Source: a virus. From it: a stretch of DNA of 20,221 bases. The DNA is taken from IMG/VR virus record IMGVR_UViG_3300043640_000037, positions 1 through 20,221 of that record; one strand, given 5' to 3'. Position numbers and translations under genes: made by a program. This document shows, in pieces, positions 3,748-20,221 of this stretch. Under the pieces are notes generated by a model. The model was given only the letters and a program-made list of their open reading frames with translations. It had not been told where the DNA came from and made no database searches. Position 1 is the stretch's first letter; every line of letters starts with the position of its first letter.

Positions 3748-4155
3748 ATGTCTGTCGTCTACGCGGCTACACTGAAGACCAACCGCATGCAGTTGGTGGC
3801 AGATTTGATTGCCGCCAAGACTGCCGCGGCTTCGACCGGATCCGCTACCGCGGGCCAGCTTGTCATCGGTACCTCGGGCCTTTCGGGCGCTACTGGCGTG
3901 CTCGCCACCATCCCGCTTGGCACCGCGCCGTTCACGATCTCGGGCGCCGTTGCCACGCTTGCCGGCGTTCCTCTGTCGGTGGCCGCTTCCGCTTCCGGTA
4001 CCGCGGCCTTGGCCGAGCTGCGCAATAACTCTGGCACCACGGTTGTTTCCGGTCTGACGGTCGGGACCTCGCTCACGGATATCATCCTCGGCACCACCAC
4101 GATTACCTCGGGCGGCACCGTCACGATCACGGCTGGCACTATAACACACGGTTAA
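3748..4155 (+). CDS. Small beta-rich phage structural protein (135 aa)
   Basis: The protein starts YAATLKTNRMQLVADLI, then is almost entirely Gly/Ala/Thr/Val-rich beta sequence (LVIGTSGLSGATGVLATIPL, then GAVATLAGVPLSVAAS, then VVSGLTVGTS) and ends TVTITAGTITHG. This matches a recurrent type of small uncharacterised protein in head-tail regions of alphaproteobacterial phages, where the 'N-R-M' opening, the L-x-I-G-T strand and the VSGLTVGT segment recur; the comparison is from memory. A GGAGA Shine-Dalgarno precedes the ATG at 3748; an ATG at 3744 is in another frame. A virion surface or decoration role is plausible. Confidence 0.75.
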   Translation: MSVVYAATLKTNRMQLVADLIAAKTAAASTGSATAGQLVIGTSGLSGATGVLATIPLGTAPFTISGAVATLAGVPLSVAASASGTAALAELRNNSGTTVVSGLTVGTSLTDIILGTTTITSGGTVTITAGTITHG

Positions 4156-7438: not shown

Positions 7439-7879
7439 ATGTCCGATCTCCGCGCCAATCCGAAAGACGTTTGCATGTCGGATTCCATGCCATTCGCGCA
7501 GCGCTGGACCGCGCGCACGACCTGGCCGCTCGCCGACGTGCTCAACGACGACTATTTCCTCAACATGCGCCAGACGCTCCGCGCCGGCGACACCATCCGA
7601 ATTTCCCGCTTCGACCGCAATGACAGCAATGATCGCGATGCGAAGCTGCTGGAGACCTGCGAAGTCATCATCGTCTCGTCCGGCCCTACGGCAAAGGCGG
7701 TCAAACTCGCTGTGATCGGTCAACTGATCCTGTTGGCTGAAGGTCCTCCGATGGGCGAGTTCGAGGTGCGCCGCGGACAAGCCGGCAAGTTCAAGCTGAT
7801 GCGCGGCGATGAAGTGCTGGAGGAATTCGGCAGCAAAGCCGAGGCAGAGGCCGCGATGACCAAGAAGATCGCCGCGTGA
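7439..7879 (+). CDS. Phage structural-region protein of unknown function (146 aa)
   Basis: The ATG at 7439 is preceded by GAGG (7430-7433) with 5 nt spacing. The product has an N-terminal part with FAQRWTARTTWPLADVLNDD, then a beta-rich centre where RAGDTIRISRFDRND is followed by strands ending in VIIVSS, and a C-terminal module (FEVRRGQAGKFKLMRGDEV plus an Ala/Glu-rich helix) resembling a short strand-strand-helix wedge. It lies just after the terminator and overlaps the gp11-like gene by GTGA. Its place between capsid and tail adaptor suggests a head-tail joining or virion accessory role, but no family is recognised with confidence. Confidence 0.75.
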   Translation: MSDLRANPKDVCMSDSMPFAQRWTARTTWPLADVLNDDYFLNMRQTLRAGDTIRISRFDRNDSNDRDAKLLETCEVIIVSSGPTAKAVKLAVIGQLILLAEGPPMGEFEVRRGQAGKFKLMRGDEVLEEFGSKAEAEAAMTKKIAA

Positions 7880-8586
7880 CAACCGCAACGGAACTCGTCA
7901 ACGCAGCTTTGCGTCGCGGCGGCGGTGCCAAGCGCATCCTCAGCCTGGACGATTCAGTCGGCAGCGCCGGCATTGCGGCGGATGTTCTCAGCACCGAACT
8001 TGAAGACCTGATGCGGTCCGGTGTTTGGAATTTCGCCGTCACCCGGGCAAAGCTGGCGCAGCTTACGACCTTGCCTGTGTTCCAGTGGCAATTTGCCTAT
8101 GGGCTGCCGTCAGACTGCGACCGCGTGGTTTCGGTGCACGATAACGAGACCGGTTGTGGCGAGGTTCCGTACAAGCTGGAAGCGCTGCAACAGCCCGATC
8201 AGAGCTATATCAACGTCATTTGCTCGAACGCCAACACGATCTACCTGCGCTACTGCCGTTCCGTCACCGATCCGAACCTGATGACGGCTTCGTTCCGGCA
8301 GGTCCTGATCCTGCGGCTGGCGAAAATCTTCGCGGTGGCCATCGCGAAGTCAAACACGCTGTTCCAATCGCTCGACGCCGAAGAAAAGCTGATGTTCCAG
8401 CGCGCCAAATCGATCGACGGCGTGGAAGATTGGCCGGAGAAATTCCCGGAAGGAAGCTGGGCCACCAGCCGAAGGGGCTGGGGCAGTCGTGGCGGCGGCG
8501 GTTTTGGGTTCGGTTCGCAAACAATAGAAGCTACGGGCATGGCCTTTGATGTCGGCGCCTTCGACCCCGGAGGGTTTGATATCTAA
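7876..8586 (+). CDS. Tail tubular protein A (T7 gp11-like head-tail adaptor)
   Basis: The recognisable core is the adaptor-type sequence: TELVNAALRRGG-x-KRI, then ADVLSTELEDLMRSGVWNFA, then a stretch ending QWQFAYGLPSDCDRVVSV, an I-x-L-x-Y strand and a long helix in FRQVLILRLAKIFAVAIAKS. T7 gp11 (196 aa) forms the ring between portal and nozzle; this protein is longer (236 aa) because of a Gly/Arg-rich C-terminal tail (residues about 196-236, WGSRGGGGFGFGSQT onward). Start is GTG at 7876, coupled through GTGA, and it ends in a TAATG overlap with the next gene. Confidence 0.85.
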   Translation: MTTATELVNAALRRGGGAKRILSLDDSVGSAGIAADVLSTELEDLMRSGVWNFAVTRAKLAQLTTLPVFQWQFAYGLPSDCDRVVSVHDNETGCGEVPYKLEALQQPDQSYINVICSNANTIYLRYCRSVTDPNLMTASFRQVLILRLAKIFAVAIAKSNTLFQSLDAEEKLMFQRAKSIDGVEDWPEKFPEGSWATSRRGWGSRGGGGFGFGSQTIEATGMAFDVGAFDPGGFDI

Positions 8587-9485
8587 TGGCCAACATCACC
8601 ATTAAGCACCGCACCGTCTCGGATAAGCTGAGGGGCGCAGACCCATCGCGCATATCCGGCCCGGACTGGAATGATGTGCATGCCGTGACGGGGCTTGAGA
8701 ACGTTGACAATACCAGCGACGCCGGTAAGCCGGTTTCGGCAGCGCAGGCGGTGGCTGACGCGGTTGTGGCGGCAAACGCTGCCAATGCATCCAACCTGAC
8801 CAGCGGAACGGTTCCGGCTGCACGGTTGCCGAGCCCGTCGTCTACCACATTGGGCGGCGTGATGTCCGTTGCCGCTGCTTCGCACCAGTGGGTTGCCTCG
8901 ATTTCGACGAGCGGCGCTCCGTCGCTCTCGCAACCTCTATTTTCTGACATCTCTGGAAACGTCGCCGTAACCCAACTCAACGGCGGGACTGGCGCGTCAT
9001 CTTCTACCTTCTGGCGTGGTGACGGAACGTGGGTCACGCCGGCTGGCGCGGGAACGGTAACGAGCGTTGCAACCTCGGGACTGGCAACGGGCGGCCCGAT
9101 TACCGCTTCCGGAACCGTCACTGTAGCGGCGGCGTCCAAAGCCAATCAGCAGACCGGAACAAGCGCTGTCGTTGCCGTTACGCCATCGCAGCAGCAACAG
9201 CACGACAGTAGCGCAAAAGCATGGATCAGTTTCGTTGGATCAACGGGGGCTGTGCTCGCATCCTATAATGCAACGGTGTCCCGTACTGTCGCTGGCAATT
9301 ACACCGTGACATTTACGGTGCCATTCGCAAGTGCGAACTACGCGTGCGTCGGCTCAACGGATACGAACTTTTCTTACGTCAGCTTTTTCAGCAAAGTTGC
9401 TGGCAGCATCGGCGTCCTCACTGCGGTTAGTGGGACCGCGGGGGACGCGGCCCAGATTGATATTGTTTGTTTCGGGCGCCAGTAG
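8586..9485 (+). CDS. Fibre-like tail protein (299 aa)
   Basis: The N-terminal 50 residues (ITIKHRTVSDKLRGADPSRI then DWNDVHAVTGLENV) look like a fibre attachment region. A Gly/Ser/Thr-rich shaft follows, including GTVTSVATSGLATGGPITAS, typical of trimeric phage fibres, then a short poly-Gln stretch (PSQQQQHDSSAK). From residue about 208 there is a compact beta tip beginning AWISFVGSTGAVLASYNATV with Y-x-V-T-F-T-VPFASANYACVGS, which recurs at the C-terminus of tail fibres and is presumably receptor-binding. It is located between the gp11-like and gp12-like genes, where T7 has nothing. The tip half is less GC-rich than its surroundings, consistent with exchange of host-range modules. The fibre call is firm; the receptor is unknown. 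Confidence 0.75.
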   Translation: MANITIKHRTVSDKLRGADPSRISGPDWNDVHAVTGLENVDNTSDAGKPVSAAQAVADAVVAANAANASNLTSGTVPAARLPSPSSTTLGGVMSVAAASHQWVASISTSGAPSLSQPLFSDISGNVAVTQLNGGTGASSSTFWRGDGTWVTPAGAGTVTSVATSGLATGGPITASGTVTVAAASKANQQTGTSAVVAVTPSQQQQHDSSAKAWISFVGSTGAVLASYNATVSRTVAGNYTVTFTVPFASANYACVGSTDTNFSYVSFFSKVAGSIGVLTAVSGTAGDAAQIDIVCFGRQ

Positions 9486-9491
9486 GATCAA

Positions 9492-12422
9492 ATGGTAAAA
9501 GCGGCACCCTATATTCCATCAAGTAACGGGGGAGAATTTTCCCCGCGGATGGACGGCCGTGTTGACTTCGACAAATATGCCGCCGCGATCTCGCGCGGGG
9601 AAAATCTGATCTGCCTGCCGCAAGGTGGTGTCACGTTCCGGCCTGGCACTCGCTTCATCAAGGAGATCAAGAACTCGGCTTCGGTCGCGTCCCTGATGTC
9701 GTTCGAACCGGTTTCGGGTCAAGCCTATATGATCGAGACCGGCGATCTGTATTTCCGGTTCTTTCGCAACCAGGGGCAGATCGCCGCGCTTCCGACAACG
9801 ACGGCTCTTGGGAGCTGGTCCGATCGATCGACTGGCGGCACCGCAACCGCCGTAGGTTCCGGCACGTCTCTTGGTCTGACGGGCGCTGGTAACGGATATG
9901 CGTGGGGCGAGAATGTGCTTAACATGGACCCGACTTTCGCCAACCAGATCCATGTCATCAAGTTCCAACTGATCGGCAATCCAAACAGTAGCATCACCGT
10001 TCAGGTAGGCTCCGATTCTACCAAATCAGACCTTGCCATATCCCGCAACATGGGTATGGGCTGGCATACGATCGGCTTCAGTCCGGACGGCGACAACTCC
10101 GTCTTTCTGCAATTCATCAATGAAAATGCAGATAATGTCGGCGTCTTAAACATTCGCGTCATGAGTGGCGAGCCGATCGAGTTAACGTCGCCTTACCCGG
10201 CCTCGGTTGTCGGCGCGCTTCGTTGGGCGCAATCCGCCGACGTCAATTACATCTTCCATGATGACTTCCCGCCCTACAAACTGGAGCGGCGGGGAGATAC
10301 ATCATGGTCGCTGGTCAAGGTGTTCTTTGCGGACGGTCCGTGGCTCGGCATCAATCCGGATACCGATCTCACCAAAAGCGATCTCATTCAAAACGGCAGC
10401 TTCAGCAACGGCATCGACAAGTGGACGCAAGCCACGACCGGCAACGGCTTCGTTGATTTCGCCACCAACGGGAATGCGGTGCTTCTGCAATCTGCGTTGG
10501 ACGGCGCGGCGTCAAGTTTGGTCTTTCAGGCGGTAGCCACGGCCGCGCCTACAAAAGTGCACACGCTGCATTTCCAGATCGTCGGCGGCGGGACCGTCGT
10601 GCCGACGGTAGGAACGACATCGGGCGGAAATAATATCCTTGCGCCCGGCGCATTGAGTGCGGGCTGGTACACTTATTCGTTCACGCCGGGGACTTCTCCG
10701 TTCTACCTCCAGTTCACTTCAAGCCCCGCGTTCGCTGCGATCTCAGGCGGCGTAAGCGGTGCATTCTGCTACAATACCAGCGCGAAACTGCTGAAGCCGA
10801 ACGGCACCACGGGGGGGACCACCGTCACCGCCTTGGGTGATTTCAGGCCGTTCGTTTCCAGTGACGCTGGGCGGATGATCCGTTTCGAGTATCCGGGGCG
10901 AGAGCCTGGATGGGGCATCATTTTGAATGTCGTCAGTTCGCAGGTTTGCGGCGTGCAGCTGTTCCGCGATTTGCCGAGTACGGAGCCGCTGGAATCCTGG
11001 CGGATGGGCGCGTGGTCCGACACGACGGGATGGCCACACACGGGGACATTCTATCAGCAACGATTGTTTGCATGCCGCAACGCCAACCAGCCGCAGACCC
11101 TTTGGGCGTCGCAGTCCGGCGACTTCGAAAACATGCGACCGGATTCCTGGGTAGCCGGCGCGCCTTCAATTCAGGACACCAATGCGCTGAACTTCACCTT
11201 GGCATCAGGCATCGCCAGCCCGATTGTATGGATCATGGGCTCGCGCAGGCTGGTGGTCGGGACAGCGATCGGGCAATGGGCCATTCAATCGAAGGGCGCC
11301 GCGCTGACGCCAAGCGACTTTGCGGCCGATCCTGAAACTTCGGTGCGCGCTTACGATGCGCCGCCGGTTCAGATCGACAGCGGCGGGGTATTTATTCAGC
11401 GCGCGCAACGCGCGCTTTACGATCTCGGATATAATTTTCAGATCGACGCCTTGAAGGCCTCCGATGTGACGATCCTGTCGGATCACATCGGCAAGGGCAA
11501 CTTCGCGCAGATCGTCTACCAGGCCGAGCCGCTGTCGCTGGTGTGGTCAAGGTTATTGACCGGCACGCTGACCAGCATGACCTACAAGCGCGACCAGAAC
11601 GTGGTCGGCTGGACGCCGTGTACGCTCGGGGCTTCCAAGGCCGGGCCAGCCGTGGTCGAGAGCATTTCCGTCATCCCCGGCGCTTCCGATCCTGGGCAGG
11701 TCTATTCGTCGATCAACCGTGATGAATTGTGGATGATCGTGCGCCGGACCATCGATGGCATCCCCCAGCGCTATATCGAGATGATGGAAGGCTATTTCGA
11801 CGGGCCGAACCGGGCGTCCTATCTCGACAAAAGCGAGTGGCGCGCGGACATGAAGGTGGCCCAGGTGGATGCGTTTCACGTCGATTGCGGGCTGACCTAC
11901 AAGGGCGTCTTGACTTCGACGATCAGCGGTCTGGGTCATCTGGAAGGTGAAATCGTCAAGGTCATCGCGGATGGCGCGGTACAGGCCGACAAGACGGTTT
12001 CCGGAGGATCGATCACACTGGATATTGCAGCTTCGACAGTGCAAGTCGGGCTTTCCTACGGCTGGATCTATCGCGGCATGAAGTTGCCCTATGGCTCGCA
12101 GTCCGGCGCCGGCGTGGGCCAGACAAAATCGGTCAACGGGCTGGTGTTCGTCCTGCGGGATTCTGCGTCGTTCGATTACGCGATTGATCTTTCCGGCGAT
12201 GGCGATGAAGAGGCGGGGCCGATTTCATTCGACGCGGTGCCGTTCCGCAAGCCGACCGACGATATGTCGCAAGCCTATCCTTTGTTCAGCGGCGAGGTTC
12301 AGGTCGATTCTCCAACTGGAAATGGTTTCAGCACCGATCCGCGCATTGTGATGATGGGAACGGCGCCGATGCCGTGGACCTTGCTCGGCATCAACCCGCG
12401 CATTTCCGAGTCCGAACTTTGA
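9492..12422 (+). CDS. Tail tubular protein B (T7 gp12-like nozzle), 976 aa
   Basis: The family signatures are strong: N-terminal SSNGGEFSPRMDGRVDFDKY, LPQGGVTFRPGTRFIKEI, and the middle block WRMGAWSDTTGWPHTGTFYQ-QRLFACR followed by QPQTLWASQSGDFENM. In T7, gp12 (794 aa) forms the hexameric nozzle at the tail tip. Here two extra segments, about residues 105-225 and 297-430, are mutually similar beta-rich modules and explain most of the extra length. The C-terminal half carries WTPCTLG, a stretch ending YIEMMEGYF, and a final strand set ending APMPWTLLGINPRI. The stop overlaps the TTG start of the gp13-like gene. Possible roles of the inserts are carbohydrate contact or fibre docking. Confidence 0.9.
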   Translation: MVKAAPYIPSSNGGEFSPRMDGRVDFDKYAAAISRGENLICLPQGGVTFRPGTRFIKEIKNSASVASLMSFEPVSGQAYMIETGDLYFRFFRNQGQIAALPTTTALGSWSDRSTGGTATAVGSGTSLGLTGAGNGYAWGENVLNMDPTFANQIHVIKFQLIGNPNSSITVQVGSDSTKSDLAISRNMGMGWHTIGFSPDGDNSVFLQFINENADNVGVLNIRVMSGEPIELTSPYPASVVGALRWAQSADVNYIFHDDFPPYKLERRGDTSWSLVKVFFADGPWLGINPDTDLTKSDLIQNGSFSNGIDKWTQATTGNGFVDFATNGNAVLLQSALDGAASSLVFQAVATAAPTKVHTLHFQIVGGGTVVPTVGTTSGGNNILAPGALSAGWYTYSFTPGTSPFYLQFTSSPAFAAISGGVSGAFCYNTSAKLLKPNGTTGGTTVTALGDFRPFVSSDAGRMIRFEYPGREPGWGIILNVVSSQVCGVQLFRDLPSTEPLESWRMGAWSDTTGWPHTGTFYQQRLFACRNANQPQTLWASQSGDFENMRPDSWVAGAPSIQDTNALNFTLASGIASPIVWIMGSRRLVVGTAIGQWAIQSKGAALTPSDFAADPETSVRAYDAPPVQIDSGGVFIQRAQRALYDLGYNFQIDALKASDVTILSDHIGKGNFAQIVYQAEPLSLVWSRLLTGTLTSMTYKRDQNVVGWTPCTLGASKAGPAVVESISVIPGASDPGQVYSSINRDELWMIVRRTIDGIPQRYIEMMEGYFDGPNRASYLDKSEWRADMKVAQVDAFHVDCGLTYKGVLTSTISGLGHLEGEIVKVIADGAVQADKTVSGGSITLDIAASTVQVGLSYGWIYRGMKLPYGSQSGAGVGQTKSVNGLVFVLRDSASFDYAIDLSGDGDEEAGPISFDAVPFRKPTDDMSQAYPLFSGEVQVDSPTGNGFSTDPRIVMMGTAPMPWTLLGINPRISESEL

Positions 12423-13313: not shown

Positions 13314-15499
13314 TGGCCGTCACCGTCAAACTGCCCGGCGCCGATGCAATTCCGGACGTTGCGCCGGCGCGCGATCCCGGTGTGCAGGCCACGCCTAATG
13401 ATTTCGGAGCGCAGATCGGCGCCAGTGCGGCCAATCTCGGCAACGCCGCGGTTTCGCTCAGCGCACATCTCTACAACAAGACGCAGGATGCGCAGGATCA
13501 GGTCTACGTCCAGACCCATCAGGTCAGCATGGCGCCGGCCATTGCGCAGGCTCAGTTAGATGCGCAGAAGGCGTTTCCGGACGGCGGCCCGGAATACATG
13601 GCCGACCTCAATCAGCGGCTCCAGTCGGCCAATGACGGGGTTACGCAGGGCCTCGCGCAGCGGGGCTTGCAGCCGTCCAAGACGGCGCAGGCGCGGGTCG
13701 ATACGCAGTTTGCCGGGATGCAGGCCGACGCGCTGGTCAAGGGCGTCGTGGTCGCCAATAATCAGAAGGTTACCGCGCTTCAAACCACGCTGAACGACAA
13801 TGTGGACGCGCTCAAGTCGCAGGTGTTGTCCGGCTCGATGAGCGTAGACGATGCCCTGAAGGGCGTCGAAGGCAACGCAGCAAGCGGAAAATCCCTTTGG
13901 GGCGGCGCGCAGCTCGTCGATCAGAAGGACAAATGGCAACAGGGCGTCATCGACGCCGCGATTGAAAGCAAGACCAAGGCCGGCGATCTGCAGGGCGCGC
14001 AGGGCCTGCGAGACAAATACTACGGTTCGGTCCCGAAATTCGGTGACAGTCAGGCCGGCGGCGTCGCGCGCGTCGCCAACAATCTAGGCATTGCCCCTCG
14101 AGACCTCGCCGCAGTGATCTCCTACGAGACCGGCGGCCGTTTCGATCCGACCATGATGGGCGGCAAGGGCGGCAACTATCAGGGCCTCATTCAGTTTGGC
14201 CCCGAGGAGCGCGCCAAATACGGCGTGAAGCCGGGACAATCCTTCAACGATCAGTTGCCCGCGGTCGAAAACTATCTCCGCGACCGCGGCGTCAAGCCCG
14301 GCATGGGGCTGGCGCAAATCTACTCCATCGTGAATGCCGGTTCACTGGATGCCAACGGCCAACCGCGCTGGGCGGCCTCGGACGGCAACGGCAACATCGC
14401 GTCGCATGTCCAGACCATCCAGCGGGAGCACTATTCGAGCGCCGATGCGTTTCTGGCGAACGGCCGGGCATCCGGTAGCGCTCCTAGTGTCAAGGTCGCG
14501 AGCGCCGATAGCAGCGCGGTCATTCCTGATGCCACCAAGCCCAACGCCGACGCCAGCGGGGACACGACGGACGCCAGCAGCGGCGACGCTGCGCCGGTGC
14601 TGCCGAATGCCACCAAGGCGCTGTATTGGGATCATCAGTTTCACGCGGCTGGAGTTGACCAAAAACAGGCCGATGCGCGCCGTGCGGCGGCAATCAAGAC
14701 TGCTTCCGACAATCGCGAGTTGGAAGTCTTCAAGGATATCCATTCCGACCAGCCGCAACTCAGTGGTCGGGACATCCTCAACGACACGACGCTGACCAAG
14801 GACGCCAAGGAAAAACTGTTCAACGTCAAGGCGGCGACGGGCGGCGGCGAGAAGGCCGATAAGACCTATGGGCCGGGCTTCACCCAACTCTATCAGCAAG
14901 TCCACGCCGCCGATAACGATCCGAACCGGCTGACTGATCCCGCGTCGCTCTATGCGCATGTCGGCCCGAATGGCGATTTGACCGTGGCTGGCGTGGACAA
15001 GCTGGTGACGGAAATTCAGGGCCGCAAGACGCCCGAAGGTGTGGCTGAAGGCGAGATGAAACAGCAGTTTTTCAAGCTCGCCAAGGCCCAGATCAGCGGA
15101 TCGGACGAAGGCCTGCACCTGAAAGACCCGAAGGGCGACGAGCTCTACCTGAAATTCATGGCGCAAGCGCTGCCGGCTTACGATGCCGGACGCAAAGCGG
15201 GAAAGTCGGCCACCGAATTGCTCAATCCCGACAGCCCTTCCTACATCGGCAAGGCCATCGAAGGCTTCAAACGTCCCGTGGATCAGTGGTTTTCCGACAC
15301 GATCGGCGGCAGCCCGACCCATAAGGGCGAAGCGCCGACCGCATTCGATCCGAAATCCGTCAAATCGCTGGATGATCTGGTCTCGGCCTACCGCGCCGGC
15401 AAGATCCCCAAGGCGCAGGCCGATCAACTGGCAATCGATCGAGGCTGGGCCGTGCGCAAGACCAGCGCTCAAGCCGCGCAAGTCCCGGTGAGCCAGTAA
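13313..15499 (+). CDS. Ejection protein with lytic transglycosylase domain (gp15-sized, 728 aa)
   Basis: Residues about 250-380 form a lysozyme-like domain: LAAVISYETGGRFDPTMMGG with the probable catalytic Glu at residue 272, then GGNYQGLIQFGPEERAKYG and helices down to YSIVNAG. Such domains locally cleave the peptidoglycan glycan strand during DNA entry. The N-terminal 240 residues are helical and coiled-coil-like (Gln/Ala-rich), and the region after 400 is a Ser/Ala/Asp linker and further helices, giving a long elongated protein. Its 728 residues match T7 gp15 (747), but in T7 the transglycosylase resides in gp16, so domain distribution is different here. ATG is coupled by TGATG to the gp14-like gene. 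The stop overlaps the following start (TAATG). Confidence 0.85.
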   Translation: MAVTVKLPGADAIPDVAPARDPGVQATPNDFGAQIGASAANLGNAAVSLSAHLYNKTQDAQDQVYVQTHQVSMAPAIAQAQLDAQKAFPDGGPEYMADLNQRLQSANDGVTQGLAQRGLQPSKTAQARVDTQFAGMQADALVKGVVVANNQKVTALQTTLNDNVDALKSQVLSGSMSVDDALKGVEGNAASGKSLWGGAQLVDQKDKWQQGVIDAAIESKTKAGDLQGAQGLRDKYYGSVPKFGDSQAGGVARVANNLGIAPRDLAAVISYETGGRFDPTMMGGKGGNYQGLIQFGPEERAKYGVKPGQSFNDQLPAVENYLRDRGVKPGMGLAQIYSIVNAGSLDANGQPRWAASDGNGNIASHVQTIQREHYSSADAFLANGRASGSAPSVKVASADSSAVIPDATKPNADASGDTTDASSGDAAPVLPNATKALYWDHQFHAAGVDQKQADARRAAAIKTASDNRELEVFKDIHSDQPQLSGRDILNDTTLTKDAKEKLFNVKAATGGGEKADKTYGPGFTQLYQQVHAADNDPNRLTDPASLYAHVGPNGDLTVAGVDKLVTEIQGRKTPEGVAEGEMKQQFFKLAKAQISGSDEGLHLKDPKGDELYLKFMAQALPAYDAGRKAGKSATELLNPDSPSYIGKAIEGFKRPVDQWFSDTIGGSPTHKGEAPTAFDPKSVKSLDDLVSAYRAGKIPKAQADQLAIDRGWAVRKTSAQAAQVPVSQ

Positions 15500-18400
15500 T
15501 GGACGTTCAATTGCCTGGGACAGAGACGCAACCGGCCACGCCGGCGCTCGCCGCCGACAATTCAGCGCCGGTAGCCGCCGCGCCGCACGATGTTGACGAG
15601 CTTTTCCCGCCGCAAGCGAAGTCGGTTGACGAATTGTTCCCGCCCGAGGTCGAAAAGGATCGCTATCGAAGGCAAACGCTCGGCACATCGCCTATTCAAG
15701 ACCTGATCTTCGGTGACACGACGGTCAACCCGGTCGCGCGCGTGCTGGACTCGTTCGGACAGGGCGCAAAGCAGGGCTGGGGCGCCGAGCCGGGCGGCTT
15801 ATCGCAGGAAACGACCGATTTCCTCAAGAAGGCCGGCATTTTCAACGATTATGACAAGGGCCAGCGCAGCGTCATCAAGGCCGCGAATGAATCGCTATTC
15901 CGATCGGCCGCTGTCGGCCTTGTCGATCCGATCATGCGCGGATTGCCGGCGATGTTTGCCGGTACGCAGGCAGCGGTAGCGCAGATCGGCGAGGAAGCCG
16001 GCCAACCGAAACTCGGTCGCGAGGCTGCCGCGGCATTCGAGGCGTTCCCGACGGGCATGCGCGCGCCGACAGGCATTCCGCATGGCGTACCCCATCCGGC
16101 ATTGGCTGAGATCGAACAGGCCAAATCGCTCAACGTCATCGGCGCCGGTGAGGATGGCTATTTCGGCACTGCGCCGACGCCGGAAGTGCCTATCTCAGGC
16201 GATCAACCCGCAGTCATCAAGGCCGAGGAAGCCGCAGCGCCCAAGCCCGGCGTTGCTCCGCTCGAAACGCCGGCTCCCGAGCACGCGCCGGCTGCCGAGC
16301 CGGGAATTCCCGCCGCAGATACGGGACCGGCACCGGTGGAAGCCGGCCCGAATCCCATCGTGGCGGACGTGACGCAAAAGCTGATCGACGCTGGCCGTCC
16401 AGCGGACGAGGCCAGCGCATCGGCGCAGATCATCGCATCCCATTACGAGGCGCGCGCGGCGCGGTTCGAGGGCGCCAAAGGCACCGCTGAGGAGCTTTAC
16501 GCGGCCGAAGGGCCCGACATCTGGCCGGGCGATGGCGTTGCGCCGTCACGGTCTGAGCCGATCAGGCCGGCGCCAGAAGGCGATGCGGCTGCTGCCGTTG
16601 AGGAGCCGACCAAGCCCGAGGGCGGCGCTGGCGCCGTCGAGCCCGTTCCGGCGCTCACGCTGGACCAGATCAAGCGCGGCAAGATTGTCCTGCGCGGCGA
16701 CGCCAAACCGATCATCACGCTATTCAAGGACTCGAACGCTTCCACCTTCATCCACGAAACCGGCCACCAATGGCTGGAAGAACTGATGAAGGATGCGGAC
16801 CATCCGGCGTCGCCGGGTTCGCTGCGCGACGATGCGGATGCGGTTCGCAATTGGCTTGGCGTCCACAGCGCCGAAGACATCAAAACCAGCCATCATGAGA
16901 AGTTCGCCCGCGGGTTCGAGCGCTACATGATGGAAGGCAAGGCCCCGACCCAGGCCCTCGCCGGCGTGTTCGCCAAGTTCAAGGACTGGCTGACCAAAAT
17001 CTACCAGACCGTCACCCGGCTAAAATCCCCCATAAACGACGAAATCCGGGGCGTTTTCGACCGTTTGATCAGCCTGCATCCGGAAGACGTTCGGATCGAG
17101 CCCGAGACCCCGCCGAAGGCCTTCGCCGACATCCATGAGGCCGACGCCGAGCATACCCCGCCGGAAATGGCGCATCCCGCCGCCGAGACAATCCAAGGCG
17201 AACGTGATAGCGTCGCCGCGCGGCACGCTCCAGAGGACAACAATGCCCGACTTGAAAACACTCCAGACCAAGCTCGCCGGAGTGAGGCAGGAAATCAGCA
17301 ACCTGCAAGTAATGCAGATGCGACCGGGACAGACACCGGAGAAGCTGGAAGTTCTGAAGCAACTGGAGCGATCGGCGCGGGCGGAAATGAAGCTACGCCA
17401 ACGGGCAGTAGATCACCAGAAGTCGCTCGAACCCAAGAGCCGGTAAGCGCGCACGACAAGTTCCCTGACAAGGCCGGCAATATCCGGCTCGACAATCTGC
17501 ACACGTCGGAGGATCTTAACCAGATCATCCGGCAGACCGCCGAAGAGAACGGCGACTTTCAGAACGTCCGCGGCCCGGTCTCGGACGCGCAGGTCCTGGA
17601 CCTTGCGGAGGCCGCCGGTGTTGACGCTGCCTTTATCGACTCCCGCAAGATCGGCGAAGCATGGACGGCGCCGCAGATCGTGGCGCTGCGTAGGCTCTTG
17701 ATCCAGTCCGCCCAATCGGTTCACGACCTCGCCATGAAGGCTGCAACAGGCGGCGAGGCCGAGGTGATGGCCTACGCGGAAGCCAAGGCCCGGCACCAGC
17801 TTATTCAGGAGCGCGTCTCCAGCGTCACGGCTGAGGCGGGGCGGGCTCTTCGGGCGTTCCAGGCCAAGTTCACCGAAGGCGTGGCAGGCGATGTCAGCGC
17901 CTTCCTGAAGGACGCGACCGGCAAAACCCTGTTCCAGCTTCAACAGGAAGCCAAGTTCATTTCCAAACTGCAAACGCCACAGCAGACCTCGAAATTCGTC
18001 ACCGACACCACCAAAGGCACCTTCCGAAATGCGATCCTCGAATACTACATCAACGCGCTGATCTCGGGGCCGGTCACCCATACCCGGTACATCGTAAGCA
18101 ACGCGGTCAATGCGCTGTACACGCCGCTGATCGAAATCCCGATTGCTTCAGCCATCGGCAAGGCCCGTGAAGTCGTCAAGGGCGAGGCTGTCGAGCGCGT
18201 GCGTTTGGGTGAGGCCGGTGCGCAGCTTTACGGCATGGTCAAGGGCTCGCGTGACGGGTTGAGTGCTGCGATCGAGGCGTTCACGTCTGGCGTTTCGCCG
18301 CCGTTACCTGGTGAGCGCGTCTCGCCGCACTTCGCTCAGGCGCAGCGCGCTATACCGGGCATGGTCGGGGAAATCCTGCGCACGCCGAGCAAATCGGTCG

Positions 18401-19695
18401 CGGGCATTCATAGCTTTTTCAAGGCGCTTCGGTACGAACAGAACTTGCAGGCGCTGGCATATCGCACCGCGGCACAGGAAGGCTTGGCCGGGGAGGCATT
18501 CAGCAACCGGATCGCCGATCTCACGACCAGCCCGACCGAAGCGATGATGACGGATGCGACCGGTAATGCTCTCAAAGAGCTTTACATGTCGCCGACCGAT
18601 TATCACTCCAGCACGGCTGGTTTGGTTCGCTTCACCAACAATAATCTTGCCGCGAAGATCGTCGTTCCCTTCATGAAGATCGGTTCGCAGATCACGCGCA
18701 ATGCCTTCATCGAGCGGACGCCGCTCGGCATTCTCGACAAGAAGGTCCGCGCCAATCTGTCGGGCGAGATGGGCGGTGCCGAAGTCGATTTCCAGGCCGC
18801 CAAGATCACGGCAGGCGTGGCGTTGATGAGCATGAGCGTCGGCCTGATGGGCGAAGGCATGATGACCGGCGACGGCCCGACCGATCCCGCGCAGCGCTCC
18901 GTCTGGCTGCTCAGCCACAAGCCGAACACGATCCAGATCGGCGACATCACGTTTGCTTATGGCAATACCGGCCCGCTCGGCATGCTGATGCGGTTTGCGG
19001 CCAACACTTACGAGACCGCGCACGGTTCGAGCGACAAGGACATGGCAACGCTGGCGGTGTCGTTCTTCGAAGGCTTTGCCCATAGCGTGCTGGATGAAAC
19101 CTTCCTCCGTGGCGTCAAGGACATGCTCGACGCCATGTTCCATCCGAAAGAATACGGCGGTCGGTACATCAAGGGCATGATCACGAACTGGATGCCGTGG
19201 TCGGTCGGCCTCGGCCAGACGGCCCGCAAAATCGATCCCTACCAGCGCGAATCCCAAGGCATCTGGGAAGCCGCACAGGCGAAAATCCCGTGGCTGTCGG
19301 AAAGCCTGATGCCGCGCCGGGATATGTTCGGCGAGCCGATCCCGAACGGTGGCGCGATCCCGGTCTATGCGAACGATCCCGTCGTCAAGGCGATGGACGA
19401 TCTTCACATGGGCATCGGCAAGATCGGCAAGAAAATCCGCGGCATCGACCTGACCGAACAGCAATATGACGACATGTCCAGGATCGCCGGCCGCATGGCA
19501 AAGATGAAATTGAATGCACAGGTCTCGATCATCAGCAATCCGAACGTGCCCCCGGCGCAGCGGATTGAAATGATCAAGACTGCGATCTCGTCGTCACGCG
19601 AAGCCGCGCGCGATTTGATCCTGATGCAAAATCCGTCGCTCATCAAGCAAGCGCGCGAAGCCAAGACCTCGCAGCTTCAAAAAGCCGCTGCCTAA
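15499..19695 (+). CDS. Giant ejection/polyvalent protein with zinc-protease motif (1398 aa)
   Basis: Likely the largest ejected virion protein, similar in size to T7 gp16 (1318 aa). Domains in order: an N-terminal stretch with VDELFPP twice (residues 32-38 and 43-49); an alpha-helical region to about 190; a Pro/Ala/Glu linker (about 229-385); a zincin domain with FIHETGHQWLEEL (HETGH at 419-423) and a downstream acidic helix HEKFARGFERYMMEG (467-481) that could supply the third zinc ligand; a low-complexity linker (about 580-650) that overlaps a nested ORF; a helical domain from KAGNIRLDNL to AEAGRALRAF; a hydrophobic stretch near 852-890; and a block containing GEGMMTGDGPTDPAQ and NTGPLGMLMRFAANTYE, seen in phage polyvalent-protein C-termini. 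Peptidase activity is predicted, not shown. The protein may be two modules fused at the linker. Confidence 0.85.
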   Translation: MDVQLPGTETQPATPALAADNSAPVAAAPHDVDELFPPQAKSVDELFPPEVEKDRYRRQTLGTSPIQDLIFGDTTVNPVARVLDSFGQGAKQGWGAEPGGLSQETTDFLKKAGIFNDYDKGQRSVIKAANESLFRSAAVGLVDPIMRGLPAMFAGTQAAVAQIGEEAGQPKLGREAAAAFEAFPTGMRAPTGIPHGVPHPALAEIEQAKSLNVIGAGEDGYFGTAPTPEVPISGDQPAVIKAEEAAAPKPGVAPLETPAPEHAPAAEPGIPAADTGPAPVEAGPNPIVADVTQKLIDAGRPADEASASAQIIASHYEARAARFEGAKGTAEELYAAEGPDIWPGDGVAPSRSEPIRPAPEGDAAAAVEEPTKPEGGAGAVEPVPALTLDQIKRGKIVLRGDAKPIITLFKDSNASTFIHETGHQWLEELMKDADHPASPGSLRDDADAVRNWLGVHSAEDIKTSHHEKFARGFERYMMEGKAPTQALAGVFAKFKDWLTKIYQTVTRLKSPINDEIRGVFDRLISLHPEDVRIEPETPPKAFADIHEADAEHTPPEMAHPAAETIQGERDSVAARHAPEDNNARLENTPDQARRSEAGNQQPASNADATGTDTGEAGSSEATGAIGAGGNEATPTGSRSPEVARTQEPVSAHDKFPDKAGNIRLDNLHTSEDLNQIIRQTAEENGDFQNVRGPVSDAQVLDLAEAAGVDAAFIDSRKIGEAWTAPQIVALRRLLIQSAQSVHDLAMKAATGGEAEVMAYAEAKARHQLIQERVSSVTAEAGRALRAFQAKFTEGVAGDVSAFLKDATGKTLFQLQQEAKFISKLQTPQQTSKFVTDTTKGTFRNAILEYYINALISGPVTHTRYIVSNAVNALYTPLIEIPIASAIGKAREVVKGEAVERVRLGEAGAQLYGMVKGSRDGLSAAIEAFTSGVSPPLPGERVSPHFAQAQRAIPGMVGEILRTPSKSVAGIHSFFKALRYEQNLQALAYRTAAQEGLAGEAFSNRIADLTTSPTEAMMTDATGNALKELYMSPTDYHSSTAGLVRFTNNNLAAKIVVPFMKIGSQITRNAFIERTPLGILDKKVRANLSGEMGGAEVDFQAAKITAGVALMSMSVGLMGEGMMTGDGPTDPAQRSVWLLSHKPNTIQIGDITFAYGNTGPLGMLMRFAANTYETAHGSSDKDMATLAVSFFEGFAHSVLDETFLRGVKDMLDAMFHPKEYGGRYIKGMITNWMPWSVGLGQTARKIDPYQRESQGIWEAAQAKIPWLSESLMPRRDMFGEPIPNGGAIPVYANDPVVKAMDDLHMGIGKIGKKIRGIDLTEQQYDDMSRIAGRMAKMKLNAQVSIISNPNVPPAQRIEMIKTAISSSREAARDLILMQNPSLIKQAREAKTSQLQKAAA
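17232..17237 (+). promoter_or_regulatory. Shine-Dalgarno for the nested ORF
   Basis: AGAGGA lies inside the 1398-aa gene, with its GAGG (17233-17236) 6 nt before the ATG at 17243. This is better spaced than many real sites here and supports internal initiation. Confidence 0.55.
17243..17446 (+). CDS. Candidate overprinted small gene nested in the 1398-aa gene (67 aa)
   Basis: This ORF is in the +1 frame relative to the giant gene. The product begins MPDLKTLQTKLAGVRQEISN and is charged and helical with Leu spacing typical of a coiled coil (LEVLKQLERSARAEMKL), ending in a basic stretch. It starts at an ATG with a GAGG ribosome binding site. By hand count about 46 of 66 codons end in G or C (about 70 %), while the giant gene's frame over the same bases has about 24 of 68 (about 35 %), against roughly 65-80 % just outside. 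The encoded linker of the giant protein is low-complexity Gly/Ala/Thr/Glu. This pattern suggests the nested frame is, or was, the selected one. Function unknown; no membrane segment, so not a typical holin or spanin. Confidence 0.6.
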   Translation: MPDLKTLQTKLAGVRQEISNLQVMQMRPGQTPEKLEVLKQLERSARAEMKLRQRAVDHQKSLEPKSR

Positions 19696-19714: not shown

Positions 19715-20221
19715 ATGACCATTGCATCGCAAACGTCTCGCATCAGTTACGTCGGCGACGGCGCCACGACTTCATTCCCGATACCCTTTCTTTTCCAGTC
19801 GAACGCCGATATCACGGTAATGCTGCAAAGCAGCGCCGGCGTGCAGACGACGCTTACGCTCGGCACTGGCTACACTTTGACGGGAGCCGGCGTTTCTTCC
19901 GGCGGTACTGCCACGATCACGCCTGCACCGACCGCACTGAGCGGCGCCGTCATCACGATTTTCCGCGATCCTCCGGTGACGCAGACGACCTCCTACAATA
20001 ACAATGATCCTTTCCCCGCGAAATCCCATGAGAACGCGCTGGATAAGCTAACGATGCTTGAGCAGCGCAGTCGCGATCTGGGGACGCGCTCGCTCCAGCT
20101 TCGCGAATCCGATGCAGCCGTTGACATGCATCTGCCAGCCAACCGGCAGAACAAGTTGCTGGGCTTCGATGGTTCGAACAATCCGATCGCGGTGTTCGGT
20201 CCGAGTTTCGTTGGTTCAACC
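19715..20221 (+). CDS. Tail fibre, T7-type N-terminal domain (3' end outside window)
   Basis: The open frame runs to the right edge, giving 169 residues in view. It starts with the classic virion-attachment pattern of T7 gp17-like fibres: SRISYVGDGATTSFPIPFLF, a strand with ITVMLQSSAGVQTTLTLGTG and YTLTGAG, then a stretch ending FRDPPVTQTTSYNNNDPFP, and the helical lead-in AKSHENALDKLTMLEQRSRD to the shaft. AAGGAA (19705-19710) lies 4 nt before the ATG, 19 nt after the giant gene's stop. The receptor-binding tip is beyond the window. The domain call is firm. Confidence 0.9.
   Translation, partial: MTIASQTSRISYVGDGATTSFPIPFLFQSNADITVMLQSSAGVQTTLTLGTGYTLTGAGVSSGGTATITPAPTALSGAVITIFRDPPVTQTTSYNNNDPFPAKSHENALDKLTMLEQRSRDLGTRSLQLRESDAAVDMHLPANRQNKLLGFDGSNNPIAVFGPSFVGST

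Follow-up and report, generated by a model that had tools for sequence, protein, structure and literature searches.

A probable overlapping gene for a small helical hairpin within the linker of a giant phage ejection-protein gene

Can a frame of only 67 codons, lying wholly inside a giant phage gene on the same strand, be a gene in its own right, or is it the trace of an old gene fusion or of base composition? We examined this question in a 20,221-nucleotide stretch of viral DNA (IMG/VR record IMGVR_UViG_3300043640_000037, hereafter the window), for which the original prediction had offered two readings, an overlapping gene and a fusion scar. The surrounding host gene is organized as follows.

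15499–19695, plus strand: host gene for a 1398-aa ejection (internal virion) protein, assigned from PHROG matches and phage relatives
16636–17133, plus strand: zinc-metallopeptidase-like domain with HETGH at 16753–16767, its function assigned by motif only
17242–17445, plus strand: host-frame linker sharing its DNA with the nested gene, acidic, of low complexity (pI 4.4) and under relaxed constraint
17467–19692, plus strand: gp16-like C-terminal domain, beginning DKAGNIRLDN about 20 nt past the nested stop codon

The host protein thus runs from an N-terminal region through an HExxH peptidase-like domain and a linker to a gp16-like domain. Its middle matches PHROG 9880 (E=3.1e-49) and its C-terminal half matches the internal virion protein family PHROG 6651 (E=6.6e-21), which places the gene with the gp16-type internal virion proteins, and the protein is probably injected into the bacterial host. 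The order of tail protein, smaller virion genes, giant gene and tail fibre fits the podovirus type, and both this order and the C-terminal part of the protein resemble the T7 gp16-type ejection proteins of podoviruses (PHROG 6651), to which the host protein adds the N-terminal region and the HExxH domain. Within the latter, the H-E-x-x-H motif and a later H-E are invariant in 12 aligned sequences. None of the Pfam or NCBIfam models matches this domain, with the Pfam peptidase and LPD models staying below threshold, so we use the term zinc peptidase because of the motif and because zincin-like metallopeptidase domains are described as prevalent among the polyvalent proteins of phages (Iyer et al. 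2017, PMC5512222). Like those polyvalent proteins, the host protein is multidomain, probably injected, and carries HExxH among modular domains; unlike them, it scores below threshold with the Pfam polyvalent-domain models. A text search of PMC5512222 found no mention of an overlap.

Elsewhere in the window, the 976-aa tail protein (9492–12422) aligned near end to end with the 712-position phrog_376 and holds an insertion of about 260 residues. The tail fibre gene begins at 19715 and is cut by the window end at 20221; this part matches the T7 tail fibre N-terminal domain weakly (E=2.8e-4, below the gathering score). Two antisense ORFs of 448 and 386 aa (minus strand, 14342–15688 and 18304–19464), which face the upstream virion gene and the giant gene, respectively, are probably high-GC artefacts.

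The features of the nested frame are these.

17232–17237, plus strand: Shine-Dalgarno-like AGAGGA, 5 nt before the nested ATG
17243–17446, plus strand: putative nested overlapping gene (class A) for a 67-aa basic protein, a predicted two-helix hairpin, from comparison and an AlphaFold2 model
17252–17320, plus strand: predicted helix 1, residues 4–26 of the nested protein, from the AlphaFold2 model
17336–17428, plus strand: predicted helix 2, residues 32–62, with a conserved motif, from the AlphaFold2 model and alignment

The ORF reads from ATG to TAA through 67 codons in the +1 frame relative to the host ORF, and its translation is MPDLKTLQTKLAGVRQEISNLQVMQMRPGQTPEKLEVLKQLERSARAEMKLRQRAVDHQKSLEPKSR. 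Both the frame and its own Shine-Dalgarno had been foreseen from the bare sequence and are present; AGAGGA doubles there as part of the host codons Pro-Glu-Asp. The hand-counted shift in third-position GC (about 70% against about 35%) was reproduced by computation, the nested frame having a GC3 of 0.69 and the host frame 0.35 in the overlap, between values of 0.79 in the 300 nt before it and 0.81 after it. The host protein across the nested ORF is, as described, a bland run of Gly, Ala, Thr, Ser and Glu residues. An in-frame ATG at 17135 lengthens the mechanical ORF to 103 aa; since several relatives have stops in this extension, the likelier start is 17243. When the host codons are reshuffled synonymously, 86% of the reshuffles leave the +1 frame open, a figure that favors an open frame driven by composition and devoid of function. 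A +1 frame of this length is therefore unsurprising by itself, and the evidence has to come from conservation rather than from openness.

We therefore turn to the substitutions that separate the window from its nearest relative, L001, counted by host codon position in host-based alignments. Positions 1, 2 and 3 carry 15, 10 and 44 substitutions in the 300 nt upstream, 30, 14 and 14 inside the nested ORF, and 8, 1 and 41 downstream of it, so that the pooled flanks (23/11/85) differ strongly from the ORF (chi-square p = 2e-8). Because the third position of the nested frame coincides with host position 1, this pattern marks the nested frame as the one under selection at the protein level. Within the ORF, identity to L001 is 0.72 in the +1 frame and 0.49 in the host frame, and the relation is reversed in both flanks. 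Across the family, identity is higher in the nested than in the host frame in 296 of 300 pairs (25 members) in an alignment built on the nested protein, with which the host-based alignments of the window and L001 agree, and in 994 of 1081 pairs among 47 distinct class-A loci. Substitution pattern and pairwise identities alike thus indicate purifying selection on the nested protein. The comparison of change in both frames, which the original prediction had proposed as a check, names the nested frame as the constrained one, the opposite of the refuting case it had named, a broken nested frame beside a conserved host linker. A +1 ORF near the same place in the peptidase-less relatives L122–L126, which served as a control, shows the opposite, non-coding pattern and was rejected as a nested gene. 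Overprint-like windows turned up at one further place in those genes that have a counterpart in L001, at 9909–10100; the alignment there has 23% identity, and they look like noise. A point on the other side is that the nested protein, with a mean distance of 1.47, diverges faster than the host domains flanking it (0.68 and 0.87).

How widely is the frame kept? Homology searches with the host protein returned 23 loci; 16 of these carry the nested peptide, each time in the same frame relative to the host, and none of the 23 has an interrupted host frame. A further search with an alignment of the gp16-like N-terminus gave 80 loci, 75 of them distinct, of which 55 carry the peptidase domain in the same ORF and 20 do not. 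A nested ORF of class A and/or of class B (a different small +1 ORF, discussed below), homologous or analogous, is found in 54 of the 55 peptidase-bearing relatives and in none of the 20 distinct gp16-type relatives that lack the HExxH domain. The single exception, L116, has an unrelated 71-aa +1 ORF with a GGAGG Shine-Dalgarno at the same junction (3783–3998), where host GC3 drops; it is a possible fourth nested class. Every complete peptidase-bearing relative accordingly has a +1 ORF between the peptidase and gp16-like domains. All 62 profile hits in the 80-locus set (E<1e-3) lie in the host +1 frame and none elsewhere, with a median profile coverage of 0.94 and a minimum of 0.69, and the nested stop coincides with the beginning of the gp16-like domain, at a median of 0 nt from the anchor. 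As the carriers form one related group, the association with the peptidase may trace to few events, and even a single old event within one clade could account for it. At the class A position, L005 has a TTG-started +1 ORF with a strong Shine-Dalgarno (AAAGGAG; 7850–8035) that barely resembles class A (E=0.24) and for which no relative was found; we tentatively label it class C, a class of one sequence, and L064, considered as its relative, was a false hit.

The same loci bear on the fusion reading, according to which a peptidase gene, a small gene and a gp16-like gene once stood apart and readthrough of a frame that happens to be open now joins them. The bland linker, the nested stop at the gp16-like boundary and the more typical GC3 of the nested frame would all suit such a history, as would the short free-standing gp16-like gene that lies directly 3' of another large gene in some peptidase-less relatives; the peptidase-bearing part may thus at some time have been joined to a gp16-like gene. 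However, relatives with the three genes apart, which the original prediction had suggested looking for, number none among the 75 distinct loci, and none of the relatives shows a sign of a small gene caught in such a joining. The nested frame is conserved at the coverage given above rather than decaying, and no peptidase-bearing relative has a broken host frame. We consider a fusion scar quite improbable, and an ancient fusion a possible origin of the arrangement.

Stand-alone copies of the nested protein were sought as well. Class A and class B queries found none in 50,697 phage records (two matches at E=4 were noise), about 680 sampled genomes gave none apart from the prophage-like copy in Rhizobium sp. 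BK313 (L023), and the remaining parts of the related phages' records gave none beyond a 15-residue match at E=0.5.

If the frame is translated, how does the ribosome reach it? A Shine-Dalgarno of the GGAG/GAGG type precedes the nested start codon in most relatives and is weak in a few (L023, L025, L029, L031). At nested starts the mean duplex energy is -6.3 kcal/mol, whereas 1069 other out-of-frame ATGs average -2.6 kcal/mol (p = 5e-10). The region around the start also tends towards less structure than the remainder of the host gene. At the level of sequence, most relatives thus keep a start signal of their own. Programmed frameshifting, which would yield a truncated peptidase-hairpin fusion and no separate protein, would be served by the shared strand, the +1 frame and the short distance past the peptidase domain. 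It is very improbable: in L026 the nested ATG directly adjoins a nested-frame TGA, which argues against this route; in L015, L001 and L003 only 1 to 9 codons of open frame precede the ATG, so these relatives lack a frame that is open far ahead of the start codon; and the Shine-Dalgarno is conserved at the start codon. That conservation, the codon-position substitution pattern and the retention of the ORF by dozens of phages also make a functionless, composition-driven frame scarcely credible. Since dozens of related viruses keep it, 17243–17446 is, on comparative evidence, almost certainly a real overlapping gene.

The predicted product is a basic protein of 67 aa (7.8 kDa, pI 10.4), for which AlphaFold2 gives a two-helix hairpin at a pLDDT of 95; helix 2 holds the conserved motif LERSARAExxLRxKAL. 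The helical character anticipated from the sequence is therefore retained, while the label coiled coil is better replaced by two-helix hairpin. With a maximum 19-residue hydropathy of -0.03 the protein is predicted to be soluble, and it has no transmembrane segment, lipobox or cysteine. Sequence and profile searches gave no significant match in Pfam, PHROGs, NCBIfam or PDB sequences, and a fold search with the model returned generic helical hairpins only (best E 0.17). Taken together, a genuine same-strand overlapping gene with this hairpin as its product is very probable, apart from any partner role. Among known systems, phiX174 E within D and Rz1 within Rz of lambda are small same-strand genes in another frame with their own starts, and both encode lysis proteins. 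The nested gene shares this layout with them; unlike them, it encodes a protein without a transmembrane segment, which makes a lysis role unlikely, and it sits in the linker of an ejection protein. In some relatives the host gene contains two nested genes of different kinds.

The second of these is class B, which lies after an extra domain, DX, and before the gp16-like domain; DX itself sits between the peptidase and gp16-like domains in some relatives. Class A and class B occur together in L014, L037, L040, L041 and L088, with class B at the following positions.

L037, 7790–7993: class B nested +1 gene, class A also present
L040, 5956–6219: class B nested +1 gene, class A also present
L041, 7784–7993: class B nested +1 gene, class A also present
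L014, about 9221–9409: class B nested +1 gene, class A also present

Nested identity exceeds host identity in 42 of 45 class-B pairs, and the class B model is again a two-helix hairpin (pLDDT 79). Profile-profile comparison of the two classes was not significant with shallow profiles; with deeper ones it reached P=0.003 at a probability of only 10%, which hints at a common origin. DX, found between the two nested genes at L041 7165–7780 and L040 5250–5955, is conserved among relatives, has no significant match in Pfam or NCBIfam, and is possibly another effector-type module.

What might the hairpin do? We propose that ribosomes would initiate internally at the Shine-Dalgarno of the nested gene, within the mRNA of the giant ejection-protein gene, and release a 67-aa basic, soluble protein predicted to fold as a two-helix hairpin. 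The nested frame bears the constraint, and the host frame in the overlap provides only a flexible acidic spacer between the peptidase-like and gp16-like domains. The hairpin may then act as a small partner of the giant protein, as an assembly factor or chaperone or perhaps as a co-packaged protein; where its gene lies, and the association of that gene with one form of the ejection protein, point to such a partnership, which we put forward tentatively. Against it speak the distance correlations given below, which single out neither flanking domain, and the chance that one early event underlies the link with the peptidase. T7 gp6.7 and gp7.3 are small ejected virion proteins encoded by separate genes, and as ejection-associated small phage proteins they may offer a functional analogy only.

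A narrower role, as a dedicated regulator of the upstream metallopeptidase domain with class B as the matching partner of DX, is a live though less likely alternative. Such a regulator would be an inhibitor or immunity-like partner that prevents premature cleavage before ejection. Class A directly follows the peptidase domain, nested genes occur only where that domain is present, class B lies between DX and the gp16-like domain, and the peptidases of polyvalent proteins have been proposed to self-process the polypeptide (PMC5512222). Phages with class B only, however, retain the peptidase domain without class A, and the distances of the nested protein correlate with those of the peptidase and gp16-like domains without preference (0.23 vs 0.25). 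In addition, inspection by eye of 12 distant phages with a peptidase or gp16-like domain revealed no obvious class A- or B-like ORF, including after peptidase domains in other giant proteins.

Overlapping genes are already well known in phages, and a review of such genes exists (PMC8227390). For the class A family, its position, its conservation and the nesting of two genes, we found no precedent in the family libraries or the open-licence literature searched, and an earlier mention is possible. Gene finders usually discard one of two fully overlapping ORFs, which would explain why the family is missing from the libraries.

The proposed partnership of hairpin and ejection protein might extend to a cassette structure, in which the ejection protein consists of effector domains each followed by an overprinted partner gene in the next linker (peptidase with hairpin A, DX with hairpin B). 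This idea is rather unlikely; if true, each hairpin would be a dedicated inhibitor or chaperone of the preceding domain, and shuffling would move both. The locus turns the overlap around, in that the small gene is the constrained one and the giant gene supplies a mere spacer. Two hairpin genes at two linkers of one gene suggest that ejection-protein linkers are a recurring home for overlapping genes, and the nested family may offer a handle on how giant ejection proteins are restrained or assembled.
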